A stretch of 64,000 nucleotides of DNA. Source: Aeromonas diversa CDC 2478-85. GTDB taxonomy: Bacteria; Pseudomonadota; Gammaproteobacteria; Enterobacterales; Aeromonadaceae. The translations under genes were made by a program, and so were the position numbers. Where the stretch lies: positions 1 through 64,000 of the forward strand of contig NZ_CDCE01000020.1 in assembly GCF_000819805.1 (NCBI RefSeq). The letters run 5' to 3'. This document shows positions 45,624-64,000 of this stretch, one piece after another; the stretch's first letter is position 1; every line of letters starts with the position of its first letter. Below the pieces are notes generated by a model, which searched no databases, was not told where the DNA came from, and was given only the letters and a program-made list of their open reading frames with translations.

Positions 45624-46280
45624 TTACTTGCTCTGGCGCTTGCGGATCTGGCGCCAGATGATGGCCCCTAGGCCCAGTACCAGCAGGGCCAGCGGCAGGT
45701 AGAGGATGAAGCTGAGGAACTGATCCTGATAGGTCTCGGCCAGCTTGGTGTGGCTGATGTAGTAGCCAAAGCCGACCAGGGGGGTGCACCACATGATGGC
45801 GCTGACGAGATTGATGATGAGGAAGCGCCCCTGGGGGATCTCGGCGGCACCGACGATGCACGGATAGACGGTGCGTACGAAGGCGATGTAGCGCGCCGTG
45901 ATCAGGGTCAGGATGCCGTACTTGTTAAGCAGATAGTAGGCCTTCTCCTGGTGCTGCTTGTCGATGTGCGAGAGCAGCCGGTGGTACATCTGGGTGTGGC
46001 CGAAGAAGCGCCCCTGCATGTAGCCGAGCCAGGTGCCGAAGAAGGAGCAGGCGATCAGCATGGGTAACACGGCCCAGCTGATCACATCCTGGAAGATCAG
46101 CACGCCGGTCAGCACCAGCAGGCTGTCGCCGGGCAGAAACGCGGTGGGCAGAAAGCCGTTCTCCAGGATCATGAACAGGGCCAGCACCACGCAGAGCATG
46201 GTGGCCAGCTTGGGGTCGGACAGGGCGACCAGGTCGAGATTCATGAAGGCATGAATCAGATGCGAGAACTGCTCCATCAT
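45624..46280 (-). CDS. DedA-family membrane protein (YqjA/YghB-like)
   Basis: 218 residues with about five membrane helices. The family signature LENGFLPTAFLPGDSLLVLTG (shown in part: FLPGDSLL) and RYIAFVRTVYP are present, as in E. coli YqjA. DedA proteins are linked to undecaprenyl-phosphate/lipid recycling and membrane potential. Its ATG overlaps the stop of the upstream CNNM gene (ATGA), so the two are coupled. Confidence 0.9.
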   Translation of the reverse strand: MMEQFSHLIHAFMNLDLVALSDPKLATMLCVVLALFMILENGFLPTAFLPGDSLLVLTGVLIFQDVISWAVLPMLIACSFFGTWLGYMQGRFFGHTQMYHRLLSHIDKQHQEKAYYLLNKYGILTLITARYIAFVRTVYPCIVGAAEIPQGRFLIINLVSAIMWCTPLVGFGYYISHTKLAETYQDQFLSFILYLPLALLVLGLGAIIWRQIRKRQSK

Positions 46281-47581: not shown

Positions 47582-47706
47582 AGGGGTGTGACAGTTCCTG
47601 TATCGAAGCGCGTTGGCATTCTAATGAATTTGGGGGGATTGCGCTTGTAAAACCTGCCTCGGCAGGGGGATCGCCATCATGGAACTGTGATCCTGTACCG
47701 CAAATG

Positions 47707-47730
47707 AAAAGCCCCCTGCGAGCAGGGGGC
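47707..47730 (-). terminator. intrinsic terminator after valS
   Basis: GCCCCCTGC and GCAGGGGGC (47711-47730) form the stem; on the minus strand it is followed by TTTTCATTT. Confidence 0.8.
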
Positions 47731-47745
47731 TTGGTATCAGGAGCC

Positions 47746-50598
47746 TTACAGGGCGGCGATTTCCGCCTGCTGGGCTTCCAGCTTGACCAGCTGGCCGCGG
47801 TAGTCGGCGAGCTTCTCGCGCTCCTTGGCGATGACCGCCTCGGGGGCCTTGGCGACGAAGCCTTCGTTGCCGAGCTTGCCTTCGATGCGGCCGCACTCGC
47901 CGGAGAGCTTGGCGATCTCCTTGGCCAGGCGGGCCAGTTCGGCCTCCTTGTCGATGAGGCCGGCCATGGGGATCAGCAGCTCGGTGTCACCCACCAGCTT
48001 CTTGACCGACAGGGGGGCGGCTTCGCCATCGACCAGCACGCGGATCGAGGCGAGCTTGGCCAGGGTCTTGAGGAAGGTCTCGTTGTCGGCGGCGCGCTGG
48101 GCATCCACGGCGTTGCAGACCAGCAGCACCTCGAGCGGTACGCTCGGGGCCACGTTCATCTCGGCGCGGATGTTGCGAATGCCGACGATGAACTCCTTCA
48201 CCCACTCTTGGTCGGCCAGGGCGGCGTCGTCCACCTTGGCGGCGTCGAATGCCGGGAAGGCCTGCACCATGATGGTGTCGGCCTGGATGCCGGCCAGCGG
48301 GGCCACCGACTTCCAGATGGTCTCGGTGATGAACGGGATGATCGGGTGGGCCAGACGCAGCAGGGTTTCCAGCACGTTGACCAGGGTGTGGCGGGTGGCG
48401 CGCTGCTCGGCCTCGGAGCCGTTCCACAGCACCGGCTTGGTCAGCTCCAGGTACCAGTCGCAGAACTGGTTCCAGATGAACTCATAAAGCACGCCGGCGG
48501 CCATGTCGAAGCGGTAGGTATCCAGTGCGGTGCGGAAATCGCGCACGGCCAGCTGCAGCTGGGACTGGATCCAGCGATCCGCCAGGCTGAACTGCATCTC
48601 ACCGCCATTCAGGCCGCAATCCTGCTCCTCGGTGTTCATCAGCACGTAGCGCGACGCGTTCCACAGCTTGTTGCAGAAGTTGCGATAGCCATCCAGGCGC
48701 TTCATGTCCCAGTTGATGTCGCGGCCGGTGGAGGCCAGCGCCGCCAGGGTGAAGCGCAGGGCGTCGGTGCCGTGGGCCTCGATCCCTTCCGGGAACTGCT
48801 TGGCGGTGCGCTTGCCGATCTTCTCGGCCATCTGCGGCTGCATCATGTTGCCGGTGCGCTTCTCCAGCAGATCGTCCAGAGAGATGCCGTCGATCATGTC
48901 GAGGGGATCGAGCACGTTGCCCTTGGACTTGGACATCTTCTGGCCTTCCTCGTCGCGGATGAGGCCAGTGATGTAGACGGTCTTGAACGGCACTTGCGGC
49001 TGGCCGTCGTCGTCCTTGATGAAGTACATGGTCATCATGATCATCCGGGCGATCCAGAAGAAGATGATGTCGAAGCCGCTCATCAGCACGTCGGTCGGGT
49101 GGAAGGTCTTGAGGGCCTCGGTCTTCTCAGGCCAGCCCAGGGTGGAGAAGGTCCACAGGGCGGAGCTGAACCAGGTGTCGAGCACGTCGTCGTCCTGGCG
49201 CAGCACGGTGACCGCCGGGATGCTGTGCTTGGCACGGACTTCGTCCTCGCTGCGGCCCACGTAGACGTTGCCGGACTCGTCATACCAGGCCGGGATGCGG
49301 TGACCCCACCACAGCTGGCGAGAGACGCACCAGTCCTGAATGTCGCGCATCCAGGAGAAGTACATGTTCTCATATTGCTTGGGCACGAACTGGATGCGGC
49401 CATCTTCCACGGCGGCGATGGCGTCTTTGGCCAGGGGGGCGACGCGCACGTACCATTGGTCGGTCAGCATCGGCTCGATGGGCACGCCACCGCGATCACC
49501 GTACGGCTGTTGCAGCACGTGATCCTTGATTTCTGCCAGCAGGCCCAGCTCGTCGAGCTTGGCCACGATGGCCTTACGGGCGGCGAAGCGCTCGAGGCCG
49601 GCGAACTCGCCCGGCAGGGCGCCGTCGTAGGCGTCACAGACGTTGCCTTCACTGTCGAACACCTCGGCGGTGGCACGCACGTGGGCGTCCAGGGTGAAGA
49701 TGTTGATCATCGGCAGGCTGTGGCGCTTGCCGACCTGGTTATCGTTGAAGTCGTGGGCCGGGGTGATCTTCACGCAGCCGGTGCCCTTCTCCATGTCGGC
49801 GTGCTCGTCGGCGACGATGGGGATCAGGCGGTTCACCAGCGGCAGCAGGATGTGCTGGCCGATCAGCGCCTTGTAACGGGGGTCTTCCGGGTTCACGGCG
49901 ACCGCGGTGTCACCCAGCATGGTTTCCGGGCGAGTGGTGGCGACGATCAGGTGATCCTGGCCATCGGCGGTCTTGGCGCCGTTGGCGAGCGGGTAGCGCA
50001 GGTGCCACATGTGGCCCTTCACTTCCTTGTTTTCCACTTCCAGATCGGAGATGGCGGTGCCGAGCTTGGGATCCCAGTTCACCAGGCGCTTGCCGCGGTA
50101 CATCAGGCCATCTTCGTAGAGGCGCACGAACACTTCCTGCACCGCCTTGGAGAGGCCCGGATCCATGGTGAAACGCTCGCGCTCCCAATCCACGGAGTCG
50201 CCGAGGCGACGCATCTGACGGGTGATGGTGCCGCCAGACTCTTCCTTCCACTGCCAAATCTTGTCGATGAAGGCGTCACGGCCGTAGTCGTGGCGACTCT
50301 TGCCCTCTTCGGCGGCGATCTTGCGCTCCACCACCATCTGGGTGGCGATACCGGCGTGGTCGGTACCGGACTGCCACAGGGTGTTCTTGCCCTGCATGCG
50401 GTTGTAGCGGATCAGGGTGTCCATCAGGGTCTGCTGGAAGGCGTGTCCCATGTGCAGGCTGCCGGTGACGTTCGGCGGCGGAATCATGATGCAGAAGGAT
50501 TCCTTGCTGGTGTCGCCGTGGGGTTTGAAGTAACCCTGGGACTCCCAGTGCTGATAGAGCGCCTGCTCGATGGCGTTGTGGTTGAAGGTCTTTTCCAT
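47746..50598 (-). CDS. valS: valyl-tRNA synthetase
   Basis: 950 residues, class I synthetase. HIGH-type motif [11 protein letters not shown] (about 45), CP1 editing domain in the middle, KMSKS motif QKMSKSKGN (about 554), and a C-terminal coiled coil (about 880-950, rich in Glu/Lys/Leu). It charges tRNA-Val and edits mischarged Thr. Third gene of pepA-holC-valS, as in E. coli. Confidence 0.98.
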
Positions 50599-50637
50599 GG
50601 TGTCGCTGTTTTCCGAAGAATCTAAAAGGGGTGGCAG

Positions 50638-51057
50638 TCAGGAGGCGGCAGACGGGAGCTCGAGCGTCTCGAGCACATGCCCCGCCTGACGATAAGCCTT
50701 GTAGCGTGCGCGGGCCTGCTGCTTGTCGCTCTCGTTAGTGGGGACAAAATCTACCACTTGAGCGAACTCTCCTGCAAACAAAGGTGTGTCGTCAGTCAGG
50801 TTAATCAGCCGGGCGTAGCGGCGGCGCGGCGGCTGGTGGCCGATCTCGACCTGGGCCTGACCGCTCTCCTCCTGCAACTGGTGGGGCACGAAGCGGTCGG
50901 CCGGCAGTTGCCAGAGGCGCTCGTCCAGGCGCAGGGCCTGGGCCTGGTCGCGGCACAGGCAATAGACGTGGCCTTCGCGCCAGTAGTCGGCCACCAGCTG
51001 GCAGGCCAGCGCTTCCCGGTCATCGTCCTGCATCAGATAGAAGGTCACTTGGCTCAT
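50638..51057 (-). CDS. holC: DNA polymerase III chi subunit
   Basis: 139 residues starting MSQVTFYLMQ. The fold markers are CRDQAQALRLDERLWQLP, RFVPHQL and VVDFVPTNE. Chi links the clamp loader to SSB. GAGGAG is upstream of the ATG. It is 40 bp upstream of valS and separated from pepA by a hairpin with a T-run. Confidence 0.95.
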   Translation of the reverse strand: MSQVTFYLMQDDDREALACQLVADYWREGHVYCLCRDQAQALRLDERLWQLPADRFVPHQLQEESGQAQVEIGHQPPRRRYARLINLTDDTPLFAGEFAQVVDFVPTNESDKQQARARYKAYRQAGHVLETLELPSAAS

Positions 51058-51081
51058 GCCGCTCTCCTCGAGGCCATCTAA

Positions 51082-51113
51082 TAAAACAAGGAAGAGGGGG
51101 CGCCTCTTCCTTG
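51082..51113 (-). terminator. terminator/attenuator between pepA and holC
   Basis: On the minus strand CAAGGAAGAGG pairs with CCTCTTCCTTG (51113-51087), loop CGCCC, followed by TTTTATTA. Since holC begins only 25 bp later on the same strand, partial termination inside the operon is likely. Confidence 0.75.
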
Positions 51114-51139
51114 CACTGGGGTGAGTCACTCGCGACTCA

Positions 51140-52648
51140 TCAATCCTTGACTTCGATGTCCACGCCGGCCCGGTTCAGCAGGAACTGGGTCAGCAGCGGC
51201 ACCGGACGGCCGGTGGAGCCCTTGTCCTTGCCACTCTTCCAGGCGGTCCCGGCGATGTCCAGGTGCGCCCAGTTGTACTTCTTGGTGAAGCGCGACAGGA
51301 AGGCGGCGGCGGTGATGGTGCCGGCCGGACGGCCACCTAGGTTGGTCATGTCGGCGAACGGGCTCTCCAGCTGCTCCTGGTACTCGTCGAACAGGGGCAG
51401 ACGCCAGGCGCGATCGCCAGCCTGCTCCGAGGCATTGAGCAGCTCGGTGGCGAGCGGGTTGTGGTTGGCCAAGAGGCCCGAGGTGTGGTGGCCCAGGGCG
51501 ATGATGCAGGCACCGGTCAGGGTGGCCACGTCGATCACCGTCTCCGGCTCGAAGCGATCCACATAGGTGAGGGCATCGCACAGCACCAGGCGACCTTCCG
51601 CATCGGTGTTGAGCACCTCGATGGTCTGGCCGGACATGGAGGTGAGGATGTCACCGGGGCGGTAGGCGTTGCCACCGGGCATGTTTTCGCAACCGGCCAG
51701 CACGCCGATGACGTTGATCGGCAGTTGCAGCTCGGCCAGGGCGTGCATGGTACCGAGCACGGCGGCGGCGCCACCCATGTCGTACTTCATCTCGTCCATG
51801 CCGTCGGCCGGCTTGATGGAGATGCCGCCCGAATCGAAGGTGAGACCCTTGCCGACCAGCACGATGGGCTTGGCGTCCGGGTGGCCCTTGTATTCGATGA
51901 GGGCCATCATGGCTTCGTTCTCTGAGCCACGGGCCACCGCCAGGTAGGAGTTCATGCCGAGCTCGGCCATCTCCTGCTCACCGATCACCTTGGTGCTTAT
52001 GTTGGTGTAGGCGTCGGCCAGGCGGCGCGCCTGGGAAGCCAGATAAGCCGGGTTGCAGACGTTGGGCGGCATGTTGGCCACGTCGCGGCACACCTTGGTG
52101 CCACGGGCCACGGCCAGGCCGTGGGCGATCGCCTTCTCACCCACCGACAGCTCGCGGCGGGTCGGCACGTTGAACACCAGCTTGCGCAGGGGGCGGCGCG
52201 GCTCGGCCTTGTTGGTCTTGAACTGATCGAAGGTGTAGAGCCCACCCTTGGTGGCCTCGACCGCCTGACGAACCTTCCAGTAAGTATCGCGCCCCTTGAC
52301 GTGCAGCTCGGTCAGGAAGCAGACCGCTTCCATGGAGCCGGTTTCGTTGAGGGTGGTGATGGTCTTGTTGATGATCTGCTTGTACTGACGCTCGTCGAGT
52401 TCACGCTCCTTGCCGCAGCCCACCAGCAGTACACGTTCGCTCAGGACGCCCGGTACCTGGTGCAGCAGCAGCATCTGACCCGGTTTCCCTTCCAGATCTC
52501 CCCGGCGCAGCAACGAGCTGATATAACCGTCGCTGATCTTGTCCAGTTGCTCGGCAACCGGAGAGAGGCGACGCGGCTCGAAGACACCCACAACAACGCA
52601 GGCACTGCGCTGTTTCTCGGGACTGCCACTCTTAACACTGAACTCCAT
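51140..52648 (-). CDS. pepA: leucyl aminopeptidase PepA
   Basis: 502 residues from the ATG matching E. coli ([13 protein letters not shown]); the frame extends 8 codons further without need. Active-site elements [14 protein letters not shown] (about 270) and the M17 signature [10 protein letters not shown] (about 350) are intact. It is a manganese or zinc exopeptidase; in E. coli it also binds DNA at carAB and cer sites. GTAGGAGAT precedes the start. Confidence 0.97.
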
Positions 52649-52670
52649 GCAATCTCCTACATCTAAAGAC

Positions 52671-52703
52671 AAGCCCCCCCTTTTCAGGAATAATGGGGGG
52701 CTT
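52671..52703 (-). other. stem-loop in the pepA leader
   Basis: AAGCCCCCC (52671-52679) and GGGGGGCTT (52695-52703) form a perfect 9-bp GC-rich stem with a 15-nt loop, 23 bp upstream of pepA. On the minus strand the tail is GTCTTT. The remainder of the pepA/lptF divergent gap holds the promoters, including a TATACT around 52765. Confidence 0.5.
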
Positions 52704-52825
52704 ACTGGGGTCGAACAGGCGGAGCTTTACAGCCCGTGCCCCGCTGTCTAAATAGGCAAAAATCTATACTAGAGTCCTATTTTTCAGCCATTCGACCAAA
52801 AACACAAGTTTACGTGGGAATGAGT

Positions 52826-53935
52826 GTGATCGTATTCCGATATCTGTTCAAAGAGACGCTCAAGACGCAGCTTGCCGTGCTGTTCGTGCTGCTGCTGATC
52901 TTCGTCAGCCAGCAGTTCATCAAGATCATCTCCGATGCCGCCGAGGGCAGTGTGCCCACCCAGCTGGTGTCGACGCTGCTGTGGCTCAACCTGCCTAACA
53001 TGGCGCTGCTGATGCTGCCCATCAGCCTCTTTCTCGCCATCCTGTTTGCCCACGGACGCTTCTATGCCGAGAGTGAGCTGACCGTGATGCACGCGGTGGG
53101 GTTCAGCCACCGCTTCGTGATGCGTAACGCTCAGCTCCTGGCGCTGGTCACCGCCCTGGTGGCCATGGGCAACACTCTCTGGATCGCACCGATCGCCAAG
53201 GAGCGTGAATACCAGGTGATGGACCAGTTCAAGTCCGACCCCGGCATCTCTCTGTTGCAAGAGGGTCGCTTCATGGAGCTCGACAAGGGGCGGTCGGTGG
53301 CCTACATCCAGGAGCTCAACGGCCGTGGCACCGAGCTCGGCAAGATCTTCTTGCTGCAACACGGTGAGGGGAGCACGCCGCCGTCTCTGGTGGTGGCCGA
53401 TGTGGGTGAGGTGACCATCGACAAGGAGGGGCTGCAGTGGCTGACCCTCAAGGATGGCACCCGCTACGAGGGTGACTTCGGCGGCAAGGCATTTCGCATC
53501 TCCGACTTCGGCAGCTATGGGATAGTGCTGCGTCAGCGCGATCTCGAGACCTCACAGCGCAAGTCGAGCGCCAAGCCGACCGACGAGCTGCTCGGTGGCG
53601 AGCTGGACAACGAGCTGATGGCCGAGTTGCAGTGGCGCCTCTCCCTGCCCCTCTCCATTCCTGTGCTCACCTTCCTGGTGGTGCCGCTGGCCCGGGTCAA
53701 TCCGAGACAGGGGCGCTATGCCAAGCTGCTGCCGGCGATCCTGCTCTATCTCTCCTACTTCCTGATGCTCAGCGCCGGCCGCTCGGCCATCGCCAGCGGC
53801 AGCCTGCCCCATTGGCCCGGCATGTTCCTGATCCCGCTCGCCTACCTGCTGTTCGTCGGTCTGCCCCTCAACCTGCAGGGGACGGCCTGGTGGAACGGTA
53901 CCAAGGTCAGGTTGCTGCAACGGGCCAAGGCCTGA
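52826..53935 (+). CDS. lptF: LPS export permease LptF
   Basis: 369 residues from GTG 52826, which aligns with the E. coli start (IVFRYLFKETLKTQLA) and has GGGA 6 bp upstream; an ATG at 52820 is the alternative. Six membrane helices flank a periplasmic beta-jellyroll domain (about 130-255). With LptG and LptB2 it extracts LPS from the inner membrane. Divergent from pepA, as in E. coli. Confidence 0.95.
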   Translation: MIVFRYLFKETLKTQLAVLFVLLLIFVSQQFIKIISDAAEGSVPTQLVSTLLWLNLPNMALLMLPISLFLAILFAHGRFYAESELTVMHAVGFSHRFVMRNAQLLALVTALVAMGNTLWIAPIAKEREYQVMDQFKSDPGISLLQEGRFMELDKGRSVAYIQELNGRGTELGKIFLLQHGEGSTPPSLVVADVGEVTIDKEGLQWLTLKDGTRYEGDFGGKAFRISDFGSYGIVLRQRDLETSQRKSSAKPTDELLGGELDNELMAELQWRLSLPLSIPVLTFLVVPLARVNPRQGRYAKLLPAILLYLSYFLMLSAGRSAIASGSLPHWPGMFLIPLAYLLFVGLPLNLQGTAWWNGTKVRLLQRAKA

Positions 53936-53952
53936 TGATTCCGAGGTATTGA

Positions 53953-55023
53953 ATGTTTGGCATTATCGATAGGTACATAGGCCGGGTCATCTTCATGTCG
54001 ATCCTGCTGGCAGAGTTGACCCTGGTGGGGCTGGCGGCGCTCATCAAGTATGTGGAGCAGCTCAAGGCAGTGGGTGAGGGTGACTACACCCTGCTCAAGG
54101 CGTTCTATTTCGTGATCCTCTCCATGCCCAAGGAGGCGGTCATGTTCTTCCCGCTAGCGGCTCTGCTCGGCGGTCTCATCGGCCTCGGCCAGCTGGCGAC
54201 CAGCTCGGAGCTGGTGGTGATGCAGGCGGCCGGTCGTTCCCGCCTCAGCATAGTGCTGGCGGCGCTCAAGACGGCCATCCCCCTGATGCTGGTGGTGACT
54301 ATGGTGGGCGAGTATGTGGCGCCCATCGCCAAGCGGGCCGCCGGCGACATCAAGGCGAGCGCCCTCTCCGAGGGGCGTTTGACCCTCTCCGCCTACGGTG
54401 TCTGGGCGCGGGATGGTCACGACTACGTCAACATCTCGGGGGTGCGTAACGACGGTTCACTGACCGGCATCACCCTCTATCGCTTCAACGGGGAGCGCAA
54501 GCTCATCGAGGTGGTGCAGGCCCAGGAGGGGCAGTTCGTGCAGCGCCACTGGGAGCTCAAGTCGGTGGCGGTCACCCGCTTCGACGATCCCGCCCGCATC
54601 ACCCGGGAGAGCAGTGCCCTGATGGAGTGGCCTTCCGAGCTGACCCCCAAGGAGCTCGGCGTGGTCAGTATCGACCCGGAGAACCTCTCGGTGGGCGGCC
54701 TGATGGACTACATCGGCTATCTCAAGGCCAACCAGCAGGATGCCGGGCGCTACCAGCTGGAGATGTGGCGCAAGCTGCTCTCACCTTTCTCGGTCGTGGC
54801 CATGATACTGCTCGCCTCTTCGTTCATCTTCGGGCCCCTGCGTTCGGTGAGCATGGGGGCGCGCATGCTGATGGGGATCGTCACCGGCTTCCTGGTCTAC
54901 GTGAGCGACCGCCTGTTTGGCCCCATCAGCCTGGTCTACTCGGTGCCGCCCATCATAGGCGCCATCGCACCCAGCCTGCTGTTTGGCGGCGGCGCGCTCT
55001 ACATACTGAGCCGCAAGCGCTGA
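53953..55023 (+). CDS. lptG: LPS export permease LptG
   Basis: 356 residues, same six-helix plus jellyroll layout as LptF: starts MFGIIDRYIGRVIFMS, with MPKEAVMFFPLAALLGGL and SPFSVVAMILLASSFIFGPLR. It pairs with LptF in the LPS transporter. It begins 17 bp after lptF. Confidence 0.96.
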   Translation: MFGIIDRYIGRVIFMSILLAELTLVGLAALIKYVEQLKAVGEGDYTLLKAFYFVILSMPKEAVMFFPLAALLGGLIGLGQLATSSELVVMQAAGRSRLSIVLAALKTAIPLMLVVTMVGEYVAPIAKRAAGDIKASALSEGRLTLSAYGVWARDGHDYVNISGVRNDGSLTGITLYRFNGERKLIEVVQAQEGQFVQRHWELKSVAVTRFDDPARITRESSALMEWPSELTPKELGVVSIDPENLSVGGLMDYIGYLKANQQDAGRYQLEMWRKLLSPFSVVAMILLASSFIFGPLRSVSMGARMLMGIVTGFLVYVSDRLFGPISLVYSVPPIIGAIAPSLLFGGGALYILSRKR

Positions 55024-55032
55024 GGCAACAAA

Positions 55033-55054
55033 AAGGGCACCGCAAGGTGCCCTT
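55033..55054. terminator. intrinsic terminator between lptG and the RDD gene
   Basis: AAGGGCACC/GGTGCCCTT with loop GCAA, preceded by an A-run, between convergent genes. Confidence 0.75.
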
Positions 55055-55064
55055 CGTCTATCCA

Positions 55065-55577
55065 TCAATCCCGATCGAGCAGGGCGCGATTCTCCCCCTT
55101 GCTCAGCACGATCACCTCGCACTCGGCCCAGATATCCTGAAAGGCGCGGGGGCTGAAGAGGGCCAGCAGGTTACCGAGGCCGAAGGCGGCGGTTGCCAGC
55201 CGGATCAGCGCCTGGGTAAAGCGAATGTGGCTGCCATCCTTGTTCTGGATACGCAGGCGCCAGGCGCGCATGCCGATCGTCTGGCCGCCGCGGACCCAGA
55301 ACCAGCAGTAGAAGCCGATGATGATCAGGGCCAGCCAGGCGGTGTAGAGCAGGCTGTGGGAGAGGAGATCGGCTACCTCTTGCCCCTCGGCCAGCCGTGC
55401 CCAGCCCAGCGCCAACGCGAGGTGTGCCACGCCAAAGCCGATGAAGCCACCGATGATGAGCAGGGAGAGGACGACCAGGCTGTCATAGAGCCAGGCGCCC
55501 ATACGGCGCAGAAAAGAGGCCGGCGGATGGTTGGGTGCCGGTGCCGGAGGGGGTGTTTTGGGGGTACGTTTGGCCAT
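55065..55577 (-). CDS. RDD-family membrane protein
   Basis: 170 residues. A Pro-rich basic N-terminus (about 1-20) is followed by the RDD domain: RRMGAWLYDSLVVLSLL, two further helices and GQTIGMRAWRLRI. The function is not established; some RDD proteins act as ion antiporters. A GGAAGGA-type site precedes the ATG at 55577. Confidence 0.88.
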   Translation of the reverse strand: MAKRTPKTPPPAPAPNHPPASFLRRMGAWLYDSLVVLSLLIIGGFIGFGVAHLALALGWARLAEGQEVADLLSHSLLYTAWLALIIIGFYCWFWVRGGQTIGMRAWRLRIQNKDGSHIRFTQALIRLATAAFGLGNLLALFSPRAFQDIWAECEVIVLSKGENRALLDRD

Positions 55578-55680
55578 GGAGGATTCCTTCCTGAGTGTCG
55601 GGGGCATTGTAGGGAGTGCGATGAGAGTCGGCAAGATGTTGAATAATTAGACAATCGCCGAGGTGTAGCAGAAAAAGAGC

Positions 55681-55708
55681 TTGCCTGCCCCAGAGCCATT
55701 CGTATAAT
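55681..55708 (+). promoter_or_regulatory. tRNA-Leu promoter
   Basis: TTGCCT (55681-55686), 16-bp spacer, perfect TATAAT (55703-55708), then a GC-rich start region (GCTCCC) resembling a stringent discriminator, 10 bp before the tRNA. Confidence 0.75.
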
Positions 55709-55718
55709 CGCTCCCACT

Positions 55719-55803
55719 GCCCGGGTGGCGAAATCGGTAGACGCAGCGGATTCAAAATCCGCCGGGTAAAACCGTGTCGGTTCGAGTCCGACCCCGGGCA
55801 CCA
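55719..55803 (+). tRNA. tRNA-Leu (CAA)
   Basis: 85 nt with encoded CCA and the long variable arm of class II tRNAs. Acceptor stem GCCCGGG/CCCGGGC; the anticodon arm GCGGA-TTCAAAA-TCCGC gives CAA, reading UUG; T loop GGTTCGAGTCC. It marks the left edge of the accessory region, a common site for integration. Confidence 0.97.
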
Positions 55804-55812
55804 CATTCCTGA

Positions 55813-55845
55813 CAAGGCCACTCATTCGAGTGGCCTTGTTGCTTT
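55813..55845 (+). terminator. tRNA-Leu terminator
   Basis: Perfect 11-bp stem CAAGGCCACTC/GAGTGGCCTTG with loop ATTC, then TTGCTTTT. Confidence 0.85.
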
Positions 55846-55858
55846 TCGAGGATACTGC

Positions 55859-55893
55859 CCCGTTTCCCGTTTCCCGTTTCCCGTTTCCCGCTT
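55859..55893. repeat. CCCGTTT tandem repeat
   Basis: Four perfect copies of the 7-mer CCCGTTT and a fifth with one change (CCCGCTT). It begins 14 bp after the end of the tRNA-Leu terminator and is non-coding. Confidence 0.9.
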
Positions 55894-55975
55894 CCTGCAT
55901 GCCCATTGCAAGGCATCCCAATCCCTGCGGGATTGCCGCTACGCGGGGTTTCGCCCGCCCTTCGGGCTGTGGCGA

Positions 55976-56173
55976 GTGACTTTTCTTTGCGTGGCCAAAG
56001 AAAAGTCACCAAAAGAAAGGCCCCCCCCCGCTTATTCGCCCGACGGTGTCGGATTCCTTCGCCTCACCCGCTTGTCCGACGGCACGCGCCGACGGGCCTT
56101 CCATGGTCCGCCGCCACTCGCTCGACATCCCTGTCTCGCGGCCTGGACAAGCCGCCTCGTCTCAGCGAATAAG
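55976..56173. repeat. GC-rich hairpin-forming repeat element
   Basis: A perfect 14-bp inverted repeat GTGACTTTTCTTTG/CAAAGAAAAGTCAC (55976-56009, 6-nt loop) is followed by AAAAGAAAGGC. A second, long-range inverted repeat CTTATTCGC (56031-56039) / GCGAATAAG (56165-56173), flanked by C-run and G-run, encloses about 125 bp of GC-rich DNA. From memory, similar segments recur between genes in many gammaproteobacteria, often mis-called as short proteins. The 55804-56346 gap therefore holds terminator, tandem repeat, this element and, after about 56250, the AT-rich promoter region of the next gene. No gene is seen in it. Confidence 0.65.
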
Positions 56174-56346
56174 AGGGGGAGCCAATATCGTGCCCGTCTG
56201 CGCCTGAGGGGGGAGTCGCTTGCTCTTCAGGTCGCGGCGCGGCGCTCAGAATGATCGGTGTCCCAATGTTGTGTCCTAAAAGTAGATTGTTGATTTATAT
56301 GTGAATACCATATTCGAGTCATGCTTCGAGGACATCAGAGGGCACT

Positions 56347-59300
56347 GTGGCCATTTTTGATATTGAAAAAGACGAATTACTCCGGCTCTCTGATACCCAA
56401 CTTGAAGAGTTAATAGCGCGTCTTGCCGAAGCGGAAATTGCAGCCCATGGTCATAGCCCTGCTTATGTACACTGGTCAGGCTCTATAAATGCTCCCGATG
56501 GCGGTATCGATGTGCATGTTAAAGTACCGGTCGAGCAAATGAGCACTGGCTTTATTGAGAGACCTGATACGATTTTTCAAGCCAAAAAGCATCCAATGCC
56601 GAGGGCTGCGATAACCTCAGAAATGACTACTGATGGGGCATTATCACCGACGATCTCTGAGCAAGTGGCAAAGGGAGGGAGCTATATCATCGTCAGCTTG
56701 GGTGATGATTGTTCTCCTCTTATGAAAGTGGATCGCCTACAAGCAATGCAGTATGCGGTAGCGGATGAACTTAACCGCTCCAATATTCACTTGGATTTTT
56801 ACGACTGCTCGAAACTGGCGCAATGGTTGCGGCAGCACCCGTCAGTCATGCTCTGGGCCCAAAAAATACTCGGTCAGGGATATTCTGGGTGGCAGCCATA
56901 TGGGGCTTGGAGCAATCCGCCTCAGGGGTCAGAAGATACCTTGATTTCAGCACCAGGGGTGATAATTACTCTGCCATCAGGAAAAGGGCAACAGCTAGCC
57001 ATTCAGGACGCTATCGGGCCAATGCGTGAGCTGGTTCGTTCAACCAATAAAGCCGTCCGTATTACGGGATTATCCGGTGTTGGAAAGACCCGAATTGTAC
57101 AGGCTCTTTTCGATGAAACGGTCGGAGCAGATGCGCTCGATCGGACTATCGCAGTTTATGTTGATACCGGTGAAAACCCAGAGCCCTCTGCAACAGCAAT
57201 GCTGGATCGACTGATTGCTGAGGGGCGACGGGCCATTATGATCCTTGATAATTGCCCTTCTGAATTGCACACACTTCTAGCCAGTAAAGTAGCGGCCAAT
57301 AGTACGATCAGCCTTATTACTGTTGAGTATGACATTAAAGATGACAAGCCTCAGACCACAGAGGTCATCCAGATTGAAGCGGTGGGGCCTGAGGTTGCCG
57401 AACAGCTTCTTCTCTGTCGTTTTCCCAATATCGGTCGGAACAACGCCCGCCGAATAGCAGAGTTTTCTGATGGTAATGCACGCGTTTCCTTGGCTATTGC
57501 CGAGAGAGTGGAGGAAGGTGAAAGTCTGGCCCAGCTTTCAGATGCACAGTTATTTAACCGTTTGTTCGAACAGCGAAACAATCCGGATGATGGTCTACGG
57601 GAGCAAGCTGAAATATTGTCTCTGGTCTATTCATTTTCAGTTTCCTCGGTTGAGGAAGGGCAAAACGAACTGGAGGTATTGGGATCTATCTCGGGGCATT
57701 CCGTAAGCCAGTTGTTCCGAGCAACAAGCAGGTTGTCAGAACGCCATATCGTACAGAAGAGGGCTCATTGGCGGGCTATTTTGCCTCATGCAATTGCCAA
57801 CAGGCTGGCGTCATCGGCACTGAATTGTATTCCGGTTAATCTACTAAGAGCGATTTTTGAAATTCATGGCAACCAACGCTTACTCATGTCATTCGCGCAC
57901 AGGTTAGGGCTGTTGCACGATCATCCTGTGGCGAAAGAGATTGTGGAGAATTGGCTTGAGCCTGATGGATTATTAGGGCGAATAACTACATTGGACGATA
58001 TATCGGCACGAATGCTGGATTATATCGCACCAGTTGCACCTGAATATTTGCTCGACAGGATTGAGACTGTACTTGTTTCCTCTGGTTTTATGGGTATGAA
58101 GCCGGGTTATAATTTACGGCGAACATCAATCATTAATCTGTTATGTGTATTGGCTTATGAGTCAAAAGCCTTCGAACGGTGTGTCAGACTTCTTATTCAT
58201 CTAGCTGATTATGAGAAGGAAAACGATGGCAATAACTCGCTGATAACGAAGATAACGAATTTCTTCCAAGCATATCTATCCGGAACACATGCTACTTTAG
58301 AACAACGCATTTCCATTATGAATGAATGTTTTTCATCTGATGTTCCTAGACGTAAATCATTGGGTTTCAAAATGCTTTCGACAGCCCTCGAGGATCGCTG
58401 GACTGGCTTTGGAAGTAATGCGTTTGGTGCTCGACCGAGAGACTATGGACTTCACCCTAGTCATGATGAACTTGTAGAATGGCGCACTACTTTTATCGAT
58501 GTAACCGTACAGTTTGGCACTTCTGGCGATCCTGCTCTTGAAGTCCCCGCACGACAGATCATGGCTGATGCATTTCGAGGGATGTGGAACCAGCAAGCGA
58601 TGAGGGAAATACTGATTGATGCTGCTCGAAAATTAAATAAACATCATCCATGGGGAGAAGGTTGGAAAGCCGTCCGTACGATGTTATATTTTCATCATCA
58701 TGCCAAGCGAAAAAAATCGAATAATGTTGAGCCCATATCAGATGCCCTTATTGCACTGGAGAAAGATCTGGAGCCCCATGATTTGCTTCCGACAATCATG
58801 ATGTATGTGCTCAGCAGAGCACATGGCCTGTGGACGCTGGATACCGATTTTGATCACAACGATCATAACAAGTGTCAGGAAGCCGAAAGGCGACTTAAAA
58901 CCAAGGCATTCCAATTGGGTGAGGAGTTTGCGGTATCAAGCCATAAATTCGATGAGCTGGGGCCTAATCTATTTTCTAATGACTACATGCCTTACCGTGC
59001 AGCATTCGGGGGAGGTTTGGCCAAGGGGGAGGAGGATTTATATTTCGCTTGGCTAAAACTTGTTGAGTATCTTGATCTACAGCCTGCAGGACATAAAAAT
59101 TTGTCAGTGTTTGAGGGCTTTATTGAAGAGACTGACCGTATTGAGCCAGCTCTTGCAAAGGCATTACTTGATCAGTGTGCACAACATCCTCAACTTCGAC
59201 ACGGTTTGGTCGATCTTCACCCTCGAAGGAGCTTCACTGAAACTGATCTGGATCGTTGTATGAATATTATGGATGACTCTGATATTCACCCGAGTATGTA

Positions 59301-60195
59301 TGAATCAATCCTATGGCGGGATGAATATGGGGATTTATCCAGAGGCCGAGTACTCGATCTTGCGATGCGGCTCCTGAGTAAACCGGGAGGTAGTGATGTG
59401 GTGCTGCGTGCGCTAAGTATGCGGTTACACGGTGAAGAAGGGACCGCGGACAAGCTTGGCCCTGATTTTCGACAAATAGGTCTTAAAGCTGCGAGGCTGA
59501 GTCTGCCAAAGGATCATTGTGATTCCTATGGGGGGGATGGTTACAACATGGAGTGCGTCATCAATGCTGCATTACGTTTCGATGGTAATGAGCCAGAAAA
59601 ACAGGAGTGGTTGGACGCGATTTTTGCTGTTGTTGATCTGCACTATGGTTACGTTCATTCATATGAAAGCGCCATTGAGACAACAGCTGCGCTGATGCCA
59701 GAAGCATTTTTAAATCGAGTCTTTGAAGGCACTGAAGAGCAACAAGAACGACGGCAGTTTTTTATTTGTAATAGAGACTTACGATTCTCACCTCTTGCCC
59801 ATATTAATATGGATTTTCTGATTTCGTGGTGTTGTGCCAGAAATGAGCCCCGCGTATGGGTAGCTATTGCAGCAAGCATTAACCTGTGGGAAAAGGATGA
59901 CGATATTGAAGGACTCAGGATGTCAGAGTTATCTCTCAGGCTGCTTGAGTCATCTCCTGACCCTGCTATTGTTCTGGAAATATTCGCCGAGCGTGTCACT
60001 CCTTCATCTTGGTCTGGTAGCCAAGCCAAAGTAATGCAGTCCAGAGCGGAGGCAATTCATAAGTTGGTTGAACATGAAAGAGCAGATATTTCGACTGCGG
60101 CTCAAACAGTCTCTGCAAACTTGGTTCAGCTAATCGAGCGCCAGAAAGAACGAGAGCAGCGGGAGGATATGGAGCAAGAACAGCGATTTGAATAA
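56347..60195 (+). CDS. Mrr-like nuclease + STAND NTPase, putative antiphage sensor
   Basis: 1282 residues, GTG start with AGAGG upstream. N-terminus (about 15-110): PD-(D/E)XK motif of Mrr type, DGGIDVHV (Asp55) then IFQAKK (Gln78, Lys80), with Glu20 as a possible first acid. Middle (about 215-400): P-loop GLSGVGKT (241-248), Walker B-like AIMILDNC (Asp301), a sensor strand ISLITVEYD, then VGPEVAEQLL and DGNARVSLAIA, resembling the GxP and GLPL regions of NB-ARC/STAND ATPases. From about 410 to the end it is long, helical and without recognised motif, as in ligand-sensing repeat domains. This is the layout of Avs-type antiviral STAND proteins, in which binding a phage protein triggers oligomerisation and nuclease activity. 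Codon use is visibly AT-richer than in the neighbours, pointing to transfer. Function is inferred only. No partner gene is visible. Confidence 0.75.
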   Translation: MAIFDIEKDELLRLSDTQLEELIARLAEAEIAAHGHSPAYVHWSGSINAPDGGIDVHVKVPVEQMSTGFIERPDTIFQAKKHPMPRAAITSEMTTDGALSPTISEQVAKGGSYIIVSLGDDCSPLMKVDRLQAMQYAVADELNRSNIHLDFYDCSKLAQWLRQHPSVMLWAQKILGQGYSGWQPYGAWSNPPQGSEDTLISAPGVIITLPSGKGQQLAIQDAIGPMRELVRSTNKAVRITGLSGVGKTRIVQALFDETVGADALDRTIAVYVDTGENPEPSATAMLDRLIAEGRRAIMILDNCPSELHTLLASKVAANSTISLITVEYDIKDDKPQTTEVIQIEAVGPEVAEQLLLCRFPNIGRNNARRIAEFSDGNARVSLAIAERVEEGESLAQLSDAQLFNRLFEQRNNPDDGLREQAEILSLVYSFSVSSVEEGQNELEVLGSISGHSVSQLFRATSRLSERHIVQKRAHWRAILPHAIANRLASSALNCIPVNLLRAIFEIHGNQRLLMSFAHRLGLLHDHPVAKEIVENWLEPDGLLGRITTLDDISARMLDYIAPVAPEYLLDRIETVLVSSGFMGMKPGYNLRRTSIINLLCVLAYESKAFERCVRLLIHLADYEKENDGNNSLITKITNFFQAYLSGTHATLEQRISIMNECFSSDVPRRKSLGFKMLSTALEDRWTGFGSNAFGARPRDYGLHPSHDELVEWRTTFIDVTVQFGTSGDPALEVPARQIMADAFRGMWNQQAMREILIDAARKLNKHHPWGEGWKAVRTMLYFHHHAKRKKSNNVEPISDALIALEKDLEPHDLLPTIMMYVLSRAHGLWTLDTDFDHNDHNKCQEAERRLKTKAFQLGEEFAVSSHKFDELGPNLFSNDYMPYRAAFGGGLAKGEEDLYFAWLKLVEYLDLQPAGHKNLSVFEGFIEETDRIEPALAKALLDQCAQHPQLRHGLVDLHPRRSFTETDLDRCMNIMDDSDIHPSMYESILWRDEYGDLSRGRVLDLAMRLLSKPGGSDVVLRALSMRLHGEEGTADKLGPDFRQIGLKAARLSLPKDHCDSYGGDGYNMECVINAALRFDGNEPEKQEWLDAIFAVVDLHYGYVHSYESAIETTAALMPEAFLNRVFEGTEEQQERRQFFICNRDLRFSPLAHINMDFLISWCCARNEPRVWVAIAASINLWEKDDDIEGLRMSELSLRLLESSPDPAIVLEIFAERVTPSSWSGSQAKVMQSRAEAIHKLVEHERADISTAAQTVSANLVQLIERQKEREQREDMEQEQRFE

Positions 60196-60409
60196 AAATC
60201 ACGATAGCTATTCTGAGACCAACATGGTTATCAAGGCCACATGTACAGGATCTTTAGCGGTAACCAATCGGAGAATTAGGACACCTACCTTTGTGGGCAA
60301 CTGTCAGGTGAATACCATCTCCATACGCAATAGATAAGAACTCTTTCCCCTTGCGACCGGCGTGTCGTGGGCACTGTAAAGGGGGCTGGCCCCCCAGCGG
60401 ACGCCTCAG

Positions 60410-60431
60410 CGTTAACGTACTAACGTTAACG
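60410..60431. repeat. inverted repeat between accessory genes
   Basis: CGTTAACGT and ACGTTAACG with a 4-nt spacer (ACTA). A second small dyad, GCTGG/CCAGC (around 60385-60398), lies just upstream. It sits in the 60196-60457 gap, near the point where composition shifts back, 27 bp before the next gene. It could be an operator for that gene or a recombination scar; neither is shown. Confidence 0.5.
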
Positions 60432-60457
60432 GGAACCACCCCACGATGAGGTGCATC

Positions 60458-61210
60458 ATGTTCAATGTCGTACGCATGCTATCCGCAATCCTGCTACTGG
60501 CCTCGTTCACTAGCCCTGCACAGGAAGTGAAGATCGCCAATGGAGAATGGGCTCCGTATATGTCCGAGAGCCTGAGGAGTGGTGGTTTGGTCTCAGACAT
60601 AGTGAGCCAAGCCTTTGCCCGTGAAGGGCAGACGGTGAAATACAGCTATCTGCCTTGGAAACGCGGGTTCGAAGATGCCAAAGTCGGCAAGCTGGATGCT
60701 TCAATCATCTGGAGCAAAACTGCCGAACGAGAGGCCGATTTTCTCTACAGTGACCCTGTGCTCGATCTGCAAGTCGTGTTCTTCTACAACACCAGCAAAG
60801 GCTTCGACTGGAGTGACACCAACAGCCTGAAGGGCAAGAAGCTCGGAGGTGTCACCGGCTACAGTTATGGCCTGGAGGCAGAGGAGGCAGAGGAGGCAAA
60901 TGGTACCGTCGCGATCGAACGTATCTCAAGCGCAGAATCCAATTACACCAAGTTGGTCGATGGCCGTCTCGATGCGGTGCTTGAGGACCTCGACGTGGGC
61001 TTGGAAACCGTGCAGAAAATGGGTCTCAGTGACAAGATCAAGTATCACGACAAGCTGCTGGTCAAGCGTCCGCAGTATCTGATCGTGTCTAAGAAAATCC
61101 CTAACGGACAAGTACTTATCGACAGCTTCAATAAGGGATTGCAAGCTCTCAGAGATGACGGGACTTTTGACAAGCTCCTCGAGGACTCACGAGCCGGTAA
61201 GTACCGCTAG
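60458..61210 (+). CDS. orphan periplasmic amino-acid-type binding protein
   Basis: 250 residues from ATG 60458 (GAGG upstream); an in-frame ATG at 60446 is less well placed. The signal peptide ends near FTSPA. The mature protein has the SBP_bac_3 fold: IANGEWAPYMSE, a GxxxDIVxxAF-like segment and YLPWKRGFEDAKVGKLDASI. No permease or ATPase gene is adjacent. A nearly perfect 9-bp tandem repeat (GAGGCAGAG, 60875-60899) encodes EAEEAEEA within it. GC content is intermediate between the island gene and the core. The 61211-61374 gap after it shows no feature. Confidence 0.85.
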   Translation: MFNVVRMLSAILLLASFTSPAQEVKIANGEWAPYMSESLRSGGLVSDIVSQAFAREGQTVKYSYLPWKRGFEDAKVGKLDASIIWSKTAEREADFLYSDPVLDLQVVFFYNTSKGFDWSDTNSLKGKKLGGVTGYSYGLEAEEAEEANGTVAIERISSAESNYTKLVDGRLDAVLEDLDVGLETVQKMGLSDKIKYHDKLLVKRPQYLIVSKKIPNGQVLIDSFNKGLQALRDDGTFDKLLEDSRAGKYR

Positions 61211-61374
61211 ACTGGGTTGTCCACCTGCCCCCTCAGTGACAATGGCTGAAAACTGGCTGGATACGATGGCAGCGTGTCCCGCCGGTTCCCATCCTTCGTT
61301 GCGCCCCTTTGCAAGTCGCTCTCGTCATATCTCATACGGCTGGTGTGCAATCGGCCTCTTTCCGTCTGGATAGA

Positions 61375-62613
61375 CTAGGAGGCTTTCACCGGGGTGGGGC
61401 ACCAGAGCTCTTTGCCCTGACGGATCCGCTCAAGGATTTTAAGCATCTCCTTTTCACTTAAGCGGGGATCGAGAAAGAAGCGGTGCAGCTCGCTGAGCAG
61501 GGCATTGCGGATCACCGGGCAAGTGGCCATGGAGTCGGAAAAGCTGGGGACGGCGCTGCCGTGCTCGAGGGCGGCGATAAAGTCGATGCGTGCCTGTCTG
61601 GAGCAGGGATTAAAGCCGGGCAACGCTATATCGGTCTGGACCGGGATAGCGCCTTTCTTGCGGTTGAAGCGTTGCAGGAAGGCGGGATCCGAGAGCAGTT
61701 CGGTCAACCGTTCGGTCGAGGCGGGGGCGTGTTGGGCCCCGCGCATCATGACCAGACTGTCGATGTTGAAGATAAACCCCGGTTGCCGCGCCGGTGTCGG
61801 CAGGCAGAGGAGATCCGGTGGCAGTCGCCCCGCATCGTCCAGCCATTCACCCAGCACCCAGTCGCCGGTGATCTGCATGGCGAAGCGCCCCTCTTTCAGA
61901 CCGAGTGCCGCCTGATCCCAGGTCAGCGCCTCCACGGGGGCCACGGTGCGGGCGATACGACGGAAATAGGAGAGCGCCTCGCGCGTGGCCGGAGCGCGCA
62001 GGGCCGAGGGCTCGAGAGTCACAAACAGCCGATGGTAGAGGTCGGGCCCACCGAGACCAAACAGCAGGTTTTCAAAGAGTTGGGCGATCTGCCAGGGGTC
62101 ATTGCCGATGGCGAGCCCGGGGCGGCCGGCTTGCCGGAGTCGCTCCAGCGTCACGACCAGCATCTCCCAGTCGGTCGGGGGGGCTAGCCTGTTTCGGTCG
62201 AGCTCGCGCCGGTTGAGCCAGAGCCAGTTCAGGCGATGCAGGGCGATGGGGAGGGCCACCATCTCGTCATTGACCCTGTGGATCTTCTCGACCAAGGGGG
62301 GAAGAGGGTGAGAGAGCGGCAGGGGATGCAGCAGGCCAAGGGCCGCCCATGAAGAGATAGTCGGTCCCTGCAGCAGCGCCAGATGGGGAGGGCTACCGGA
62401 GAGGGTGCGGGCCTGCAGTATGGTTCTGGCGTTGTCGCCTCCCCCTCCCGGGACGGGCACCTCACGCAGTGGCAGGCCGTTTTGCTTGAGGGTCTCGGCC
62501 AGTTCGGCGACCGCCCGCCGCTCACCGCGGGAGGTCCACCAGTGCATAAACTCCAGCTCCGCGGCCTGGCCTATCTGTACCATCAGCAGCGCAGCAAGCA
62601 GCAGGCGTTTCAT
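61375..62613 (-). CDS. periplasmic solute-binding protein coupled to a histidine kinase
   Basis: 412 residues. Signal peptide MKRLLLAALLMVQIGQA, then a family 1 extracellular solute-binding protein (ELEFMHWWTSRGERRAVAEL; ALTWDQAALGLKEGRFAMQI; PGFIFNIDSLVMMRGAQ). No transporter is next to it; instead its ATG overlaps the stop of the histidine kinase gene (ATGA). It therefore probably presents a ligand to the kinase, in the manner proposed for PgtC with PgtB in Salmonella. The ligand may be a sugar or phosphorylated compound, but this is not readable. Confidence 0.85.
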   Translation of the reverse strand: MKRLLLAALLMVQIGQAAELEFMHWWTSRGERRAVAELAETLKQNGLPLREVPVPGGGGDNARTILQARTLSGSPPHLALLQGPTISSWAALGLLHPLPLSHPLPPLVEKIHRVNDEMVALPIALHRLNWLWLNRRELDRNRLAPPTDWEMLVVTLERLRQAGRPGLAIGNDPWQIAQLFENLLFGLGGPDLYHRLFVTLEPSALRAPATREALSYFRRIARTVAPVEALTWDQAALGLKEGRFAMQITGDWVLGEWLDDAGRLPPDLLCLPTPARQPGFIFNIDSLVMMRGAQHAPASTERLTELLSDPAFLQRFNRKKGAIPVQTDIALPGFNPCSRQARIDFIAALEHGSAVPSFSDSMATCPVIRNALLSELHRFFLDPRLSEKEMLKILERIRQGKELWCPTPVKAS

Positions 62614-64000
62614 GATGATTTTGCCAGGGTGAGGCAGGCCACCAGCCCCCCCTCGTCGTGGTTGTGCAGCGTCAGATCTCCCCCGTGGGCCCGGGCAATG
62701 CTGCGCGCTATGGTCAGCCCCAATCCGGAGCCGCTGCCCTGCTCCGGGCTGATGCGGGTATAGGGCTCGAAGACTCGCTCCAGCCACTCGTCATGGATCC
62801 CGGAGCCCGCGTCGTGGATCTCGATACGGTAGTGTGTCGCCGTGCTCTGCACCGCGATGGCCAGACGATCTCCGTATTTGATGCCATTGTCGATGAGGTT
62901 CATCAGGCAGCGACGCAGGGCCAGCGGCTTGGCCATACAGGGCAGTGCCGTGGCCATCTGCAGCCGGACCCGCGCTTGCTCCTGATTGTACTCATGGGCG
63001 CAGTGTCGCAGCTCGGCCGCCAGATCCACCGGCTCCGTCTCTTCGTGCAGATCGGTATCACGAATACACTGCAAGGCGTTCTTGAGCATGAAGTCTATGT
63101 CCCCCAGCAGCTTCTCGAAGCGTGCCCGGGTGGGCTCGTCGTCGAGCATGTCGGCGCGCAGCCTCAGGCAGGCGAGGGGGGTTCGCAGATCGTGAGAGAG
63201 GGTGGAGAAGAGCTGCTCCCGATCGCGCAGATAGCTGCCTATCCTGCGGTTCATCTTGTTGAAGGCGGCGACGGCGGTGCGCAGCTCTCCTGCGCCCCGC
63301 TCAGGCACTTCGGTGACGCTGAGGCGGGTGCTCATCAGGGTGGAGGCATGCACCAGCGCACGCAGGGGTTGCAGCTCGTGGCGGATCACCCGGGTGATGA
63401 TGAGCAGTAGCAGCACAGAGGCGATGATGAGGAAGAGAACTTGTCTCGGCTCGAGCACGCTGGTGGCAAAATAGGTGTAGGGGAGGGGCAGGGTCGTGGC
63501 CAGGTAGAGCCACTCACTCTGGCTAAGCGCGAGCTGGATCACGATGACCGGCAGATCGAAGTCCCCCAGTACCATGCTGTACTGCGTCCACAGCGAGGGA
63601 ACCTCATCGAGGGGTATGCCGGCGTTGAACACCCGGACATCGTCCCTGTGAGTGATGGTGACGATGGCCTTGAGCGTGCCCAGCCGCTGTTGCAGTTGCA
63701 TCAGGGCGTGCCGCGCCGCCCGTTCGCTGTTCTCGTGGGTATAGCTGCTCTGGTTCTCCACATGGTGGTTGTTGAGGGAGATGAAGAAGCGCGATCCGCC
63801 GGTTTCGAGCAGCTGGCTCAGGACCAGGTGGCGGTAGTTGTCGGGCAGAGAGCGAAAGTAGGTAACCGTCTTCACCGCCGCCTGAGTCACCTCTGTGATG
63901 ACCTTGTCGATCTCCTGATTGCGGCTGGCCTGGATGGACCTTAGCCAGATGGCGCCGGCGATGAGTTCGGCCAGCACGATCAATCCAATGATCCAGGCGC
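62610..64000 (-). CDS. sensor histidine kinase (5' end outside window)
   Basis: At least 463 codons are visible; the frame stays open to the window edge with a membrane helix in progress (AWIIGLIVLAELIAGAIWL), so the true start lies beyond 64000. After the first helix comes a periplasmic domain (about 150 residues), a second helix (LFLIIASVLLLLIITRV), a HAMP linker, the HisKA box TLSHDLRTPLACL and a HATPase domain with LIDNGIKYG, IHDAGSGI and GSGLGLTIARS. It autophosphorylates on the His of the HisKA box. Its response regulator is expected upstream, off the window. Confidence 0.92.
   Translation of the reverse strand, partial: AWIIGLIVLAELIAGAIWLRSIQASRNQEIDKVITEVTQAAVKTVTYFRSLPDNYRHLVLSQLLETGGSRFFISLNNHHVENQSSYTHENSERAARHALMQLQQRLGTLKAIVTITHRDDVRVFNAGIPLDEVPSLWTQYSMVLGDFDLPVIVIQLALSQSEWLYLATTLPLPYTYFATSVLEPRQVLFLIIASVLLLLIITRVIRHELQPLRALVHASTLMSTRLSVTEVPERGAGELRTAVAAFNKMNRRIGSYLRDREQLFSTLSHDLRTPLACLRLRADMLDDEPTRARFEKLLGDIDFMLKNALQCIRDTDLHEETEPVDLAAELRHCAHEYNQEQARVRLQMATALPCMAKPLALRRCLMNLIDNGIKYGDRLAIAVQSTATHYRIEIHDAGSGIHDEWLERVFEPYTRISPEQGSGSGLGLTIARSIARAHGGDLTLHNHDEGGLVACLTLAKSS

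Follow-up and report, generated by a model that had tools for sequence, protein, structure and literature searches.

A full-length PD-Lambda-4_A homologue with no adjoining partner gene in Aeromonas diversa, a probable NLR-like phage sensor with a nuclease-like effector

We analysed a 64,000-nucleotide stretch of Aeromonas diversa DNA (the window; positions 1 to 64,000 of contig NZ_CDCE01000020.1) and within it one long gene, here called window A, together with its relatives. As judged by its profile match, window A is a full-length homologue of PD-Lambda-4_A, the large component of the phage-defence system PD-lambda-4, and it has no PD-Lambda-4_B partner gene (B) adjoining. Its protein carries a nuclease-like domain, a STAND switch and a long helical part, in that order, with conserved motif and P-loop residues; in some relatives the effector is a different one, and in others divergence breaks sharply near the border between the switch and the presumed detector. 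We consider it likely that the stand-alone PD-lambda-4 A protein serves bacteria as a STAND-type (NLR-like) sensor of phage, with a nuclease effector. Whereas the PD-lambda-4 system was known before, the absence of an adjoining B, the relatives with an esterase for the nuclease, and the detector contrasts are new here.

Family identity of window A

Residues 1-1282 of window A matched positions 1-1283 of the PADLOC model PD-Lambda-4_A (Table 1), and at an expectation value (E) limit of 10 the sole models listed were three PD-Lambda-4_A models (PADLOC-DB of 2023; HMMER filters remove most matches above E of about 0.1). Under this same limit and these filters no Avs model was listed, and membership of Avs by sequence was rejected on that ground. 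An earlier note, made from the sequence alone, had regarded the protein as a compact Avs relative with an unmatched sensor; a relation to Avs by sequence is not supported, and with its end-to-end PD-Lambda-4_A match (2092 bits) the protein is not an undescribed one. Its trigger may, as that note suggested, be new. The fold comparison revealed the common AAA+/STAND fold only; the solved Avs3 and Avs4 were not among the 50 matches listed per predicted model, which bears neither way on a relationship. Pfam gave weak AAA matches only, NCBIfam nothing near its cut-offs, and a PDB sequence search with the whole protein no solved relative; a profile of the N-terminal part gave 16 weak PDB matches at E ≤ 1 (best 0.015), mostly to other P-loop proteins, and a profile of the C-terminal part gave none.

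The phage-defence role that the earlier note proposed is supported, because window A is a full-length PD-Lambda-4_A homologue and PD-lambda-4 is attributed, in a review table (PMC10952713), to Vassallo et al. 2022, who carried out a phage selection. That table places PD-lambda-4 under P-loop NTPases only, and the systems of Vassallo et al. lowered phage plating in E. coli, a statement made of the study's systems generally (PMC9519451). The listings of our literature search, which covered open papers, showed no account of PD-lambda-4 as a STAND receptor.

The open reading frame, which begins with GTG, is no chance one, since its whole length matches a 1283-residue profile, the 72 full-length relatives retained span 1260-1293 residues, and the ratio of nonsynonymous to synonymous divergence (dN/dS) was 0.31 against L009, 0.24 against L010 and 0.24 against L137. 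These ratios show that window A is kept as a protein, under purifying selection; in two more pairs (0.07 and 0.06) synonymous divergence (dS) was saturated.

Domain organisation

The central region of window A combines a P-loop, a hydrophobic strand ending in Asp, and an AAA+/NB-ARC-like fold, according to the alignment and the predicted model, and thus has the features of a STAND switch. The C-terminal residues, about 780 of them, were nearly all helical in the predicted model (mean predicted local distance difference test score, pLDDT, 85.7; two short strands), and this solenoid is presumed to be the detector. At the N-terminus, D51, G53, D55, Q78, K80 and E92 were invariant in 28 aligned rows reaching down to 18% identity. 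In the predicted model D55 lies just ahead of a strand (residues 56-59), and Q78 and K80 lie on another (residues 74-80); PD-(D/E)XK enzymes likewise place an Asp before a strand and (E/Q)xK on a strand. The 28-row alignment and the model together therefore put the Asp and (E/Q)xK motif residues at core strands, as expected of a PD-(D/E)XK domain.

Most of what the earlier note had read from the letters was recovered: the Mrr-type DGGID...QAKK motif that it placed at residues 52-80 (the two halves start at residue 51 and end at residue 81), the P-loop exactly as given, the Walker B-like ILDNC (residues 299-303) and a DGNARVSLAIA segment (near residues 375-385). The C-terminal stretch, which the note put at about 870 helical residues, is mostly helical over about 780 residues.

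Table 1 Features of window A and its upstream flank (window coordinates)
Feature	Residues	Coordinates	Strand	Basis
PD-Lambda-4_A homologue, candidate stand-alone receptor	1-1282 (1282 aa)	56347..60195	+	Open reading frame; PADLOC PDLC03991, E=0, 2092.5 bits
Upstream stretch conserved with the A gene		56277..56346	+	Homology in two congeneric genomes
PD-(D/E)XK/Mrr-type nuclease-like effector	about 1-165	56347..56841	+	Invariant residues, helix/strand order, motif-level Mrr match
DGGID motif	51-55	56497..56511	+	Sequence, alignments
QAKK motif	78-81	56578..56589	+	Sequence, alignments
STAND/AAA+ switch	about 190-495	56914..57831	+	
P-loop GLSGVGKT	241-248	57067..57090	+	Sequence, alignment
Walker B-like AIMILDNC	296-303	57232..57255	+	D301, N302 and C303 at least 97% conserved, 73 rows
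Change-point zone	454-613	57706..58185	+	Joint support intervals, six cross-class pairs
Helical solenoid, presumed detector	about 500-1282	57844..60192	+	

Partner gene B

In E. coli FEX669 (L001), the A gene is followed by a 303-residue gene matching PD-Lambda-4_B. At the window, PADLOC at E 0.01 gave no hit on five genes neighbouring A (60446-61210 included), and tblastn of the E. coli B against bases 46001-64000 gave no match. Among 88 loci, tblastn (E ≤ 0.01) found B in six, all of them in Enterobacterales; for the other 82, a diverged B would escape the search, a B may lie elsewhere in the genome, and some of the sequences stop shortly past A. Similarity to B breaks off early in L014, L022 and L023. 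Matches to B were present in 147 of 5426 E. coli genomes, and in 57 of the 60 listed the match was spread over two or three annotated features, whereas A, for which a search of this type gave 151 genomes, was covered to at least 80% in 131. Because B is rare or in pieces while A is mostly whole, these sequence data suggest, short of proof, a greater importance of A than of B; the E. coli copies are close relatives, and a single event may lie behind their B fragmentation.

We also considered that PD-lambda-4 is an obligate two-gene system, with window A an orphan or decaying copy that no longer protects. PADLOC does model A and B separately, the two adjoin in E. coli FEX669, and the searches at the window gave no B; yet window A is complete and its dN/dS of 0.24-0.31 marks purifying selection, and the loci without a detectable B and the fragmented E. 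coli B beside a largely intact A also argue against this explanation, which we regard as unlikely.

In one E. coli copy (L192:6001-6913), PD-Lambda-4_B is annotated as two open reading frames of 248 and 51 residues because of a frameshift. A genes can be short or broken as well (L041, 137; L045, 864; L052, 828; L061, 493 residues, from the start chosen), and the receptor therefore also decays.

Effector replacement and divergence breaks in relatives

Plasmid relatives from Enterobacter roggenkampii (L007), Vibrio halioticoli (L193) and Lelliottia (L194), about 27% identical to window A, aligned with it from residue 161 or 169 to 1270 or 1282; where window A has the nuclease, they have an N-terminal DUF676 serine esterase (E of 8.7e-6, 2.7e-6 and 4.3e-6, respectively). 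A protein encoded on a Moraxella plasmid (L195) aligned over residues 177-868; its N-terminus had no Pfam match and no clear similarity to that of window A. Distant homologues on a cyanobacterial plasmid (L196:2820-6572) and a haloarchaeal plasmid (L197:2880-6581) keep a DGGED/DGGID-type N-terminus.

We then compared the first part of the protein with the detector. The genome scan yielded 337 relatives; the best 80 of the 337 and two further loci were used, 72 of these 82 were kept as full length (the other 10 were duplicates, broken, or truncated at the edge of a contig), and all pairs were compared with the window included. Identity over residues 1-400 reached at least 90% in 58 pairs; among these, detector identity (residues 601-1282) was at least 80% in 31 and below 70% in 27, with none between 70 and 80%; the reverse contrast (detector at least 80%, first part below 80%) occurred in 0 of 52 pairs. 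The pairs are not independent, and three sources account for the contrasts: Enterobacterales (three classes, namely L014/L016, L017/L019/L043 and L022/L023 with the E. coli type), Rhodobacterales (L036 versus others) and Aeromonas/Shewanella (window and L009 versus L010). Over residues 601-1282, only L009 (92.5%) and L010 (64.7%) exceeded 61.5% identity to the window. G025, a genome of the window's genus with the gene on two contigs, provided a fourth case, with 85-93% amino acid identity over residues 1-500 and 49-70% after residue 600.

Synonymous divergence followed the same division. Between classes, dS over residues 2-400 versus 601-1282 was 0.15 versus 1.17 (window/L010), 0.16 versus 2.58 (L019/L023), 0.27 versus 1.43 (L014/L017) and 0.20 versus 2.09 (L014/L022); for L036/L056 it was 0.63 in the first part and not computable in the detector. 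Within classes it was 0.04 versus 0.10 (window/L009), and in other pairs 0.42 versus 0.25, 0.15 versus 0.06, 0.21 versus 0.37 and 0.72 versus 0.77. Third-position change-points fell after residues 462, 476, 508, 540, 508 and 560 in six cross-class pairs (twice the log-likelihood difference, 132-238); for three same-class pairs this difference was 15-29, and two of the three ran the opposite way; the change-point pairs were picked after the identity table had been seen.

In approximately unbiased (AU) tests on Enterobacterales, the N-terminal half did not reject the detector classes as groups (p 0.57-0.60), so no tree conflict was shown within this order; the detector half rejected two pairings from the N-terminal tree (p 1.1e-5 and 6e-10). 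The group in which the N-terminal tree places L036 was rejected by the detector half (AU p 3.7e-8; N-side support 86-93). All AU groups, that of L036 included, were named after quick trees had been seen. Megablast of the three Enterobacterales detector classes in E. coli found that of L023 only (143 genomes), and none for L014 or L017.

We read these patterns as recombination near the switch/detector border, in which either side may have moved. Because detector identity is bimodal in pairs with near-identical residues 1-400, and because the breaks fall at residues 462-560, the comparison suggests detector replacement on a fixed nuclease-plus-switch chassis. The same contrast could have arisen through faster diversifying evolution of the detector. 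Detectors are generally less conserved than the rest of the protein, no tree conflict was shown within Enterobacterales from the N-terminal half, and detector dN/dS is not lower everywhere, all of which would fit; but dS jumps as well (as in window/L010 and L019/L023), the change-points are sharp, and detector identities between 70 and 80% are missing from all 58 pairs, so that we find faster evolution an improbable account.

Distribution and genomic setting

One copy of A was found in the window's genome, and matches occurred in 5 of 37 genomes of the genus, its own included, a patchy distribution; three were 100, 95 and 86% identical, a fourth lay in two parts on separate contigs (86 and 58%) and the fifth was 33% identical, the nearest named relative being Aeromonas dhakensis (95%). 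Both chromosomes and plasmids carry homologues (44 plasmid records), and a search of the phage collection gave no match to A.

The neighbourhood survey covered 147 open reading frames around 20 loci (taken from 47 with flanks longer than 6 kb; 1 of 148 was dropped for length), with 150 controls from other stretches of those 20 contigs (156 at first, less 2 for length and 4 for the size cap). At 1e-10, 83 PADLOC models were matched near homologues versus 53 in the controls. Among the 25 models listed for each set, the near set included PifA, QatA, MzaA, Olo, Old, PDC families and PD-Lambda-4_B, and the control set, in which generic matches predominated, mad3, mad8, RtcR, a UvrD-type helicase under GajB, WYL and a reverse transcriptase (RT)-associated helicase. 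The defence-island survey that the earlier note called for thus did find defence-family genes near homologues, but no measured enrichment is claimed, because the models overlap and many are generic. A GMP-synthase C-terminal domain was found in 3 of the 147 neighbouring reading frames; guaA is a known insertion site.

The earlier note had also pointed to an AT-rich gene next to tRNA-Leu. Both parts hold (guanine-plus-cytosine content 46.7% versus 62.6% in window bases 1-56000; tRNA-Leu(CAA) at 55719-55803, its end 544 bases before the start codon), but a significance of the tRNA was not shown. No integrase was found beside the A gene among the neighbours examined. An attachment site for the A gene at tRNA-Leu was not shown. 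Downstream of the matching tRNA-Leu in nine other genomes of the genus, integrases made up 2 of 10 genes tested; these phage integrases, in two genomes, lie 212 (L176:362-1621) and 261 bases (L188:8387-9595) past the end of the tRNA.

Homology to two genomes of the genus spans 56277-60198, that is, the A gene and 70 upstream bases. Between tRNA-Leu and the A gene lies an interspersed repeat (55945-56196) with many copies across genomes of the genus. Downstream, 37 bases (60290-60326) recur as exact repeats in many genomes of the genus; they are probably a relic of an insertion-sequence end, because in four copies (L134, L139, L140, L141) they terminate a longer shared stretch. The next gene downstream of A (60446-61210) encodes an SBP_bac_3 solute-binding protein, with no counterpart among the matches listed for the remaining 36 Aeromonas genomes.

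Discussion

The mechanism that we infer, covering phage protection by the window copy, its ligand, assembly, DNA cleavage and the working of A without B, would run as follows. The solenoid would respond to a signal of infection, probably by binding a phage protein or a phage-induced ligand; the STAND module would then exchange its nucleotide, and ATP-bound modules would assemble. The assembled modules would turn on the N-terminal PD-(D/E)XK nuclease, which would cut DNA and stop the infection, perhaps at the cell's cost. For Avs1-4, activation is described as leading to cleavage of phage and host genomes (PMC12931631).

Several observations weigh against this reading. Pfam nuclease families gave no match to the N-terminus of window A, and hhalign to E. 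coli Mrr (single sequence) was not significant (probability 2.4%, E 0.02); of the support anticipated in the earlier note, the STAND/AAA+ switch and the domain order were borne out. The nuclease assignment comes from motif and strand order, and the fold comparison hardly covered the N-terminal domain. The defence-gene enrichment around homologues is suggestive only, and A alone may be inactive. The lack of a significant nuclease-family match would also suit a domain that acts on RNA or merely binds nucleic acid, with an outcome other than DNA cleavage. We hold this to be very unlikely, given the six invariant residues, the positions of Q78 and K80 on a predicted strand and of D55 just before one, and the DGGID stretch standing opposite the DGGID of E. 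coli Mrr in the hhalign comparison.

A wider form of the NLR-like sensor reading, on which we are evenly divided, is that PD-lambda-4 A alone is an NLR-like receptor whose detector blocks are exchanged through recombination near residues 460-560, producing discrete classes with different triggers; its effector would be replaceable by an esterase, B would be a dispensable Enterobacterales add-on, and the window's detector class would be one not found in E. coli. Should A be sufficient by itself, an annotation rule requiring both PD-lambda-4 genes adjoining would miss the system in the window and in the other loci where no B was detected (82 of 88). Natural detector classes on a near-identical chassis would furthermore be a ready set for asking which part sets phage specificity in an NLR-like receptor.

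Among known systems, window A shares with E. coli Mrr the aligned DGGID stretch, but it shows no significant overall similarity, and its domain is fused to a receptor. Unlike the plant NB-ARC receptors NRC1 and Roq1, to which it has no clear PDB sequence relation, it has a nuclease-like effector. The order of Avs1-4, with an N-terminal nuclease, a central STAND module and a C-terminal detector, recurs in window A (the nuclease by motif and strand order, the detector by presumed role), whereas, in contrast to Avs1-4 and Avs5, the helical part gave only generic HEAT/ARM-like matches and no Avs profile was listed. Compared with PD-lambda-4 itself, window A is 65% identical to the A of E. coli FEX669, but it stands without an adjoining B, and its detector belongs to another class than that of E. 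coli.

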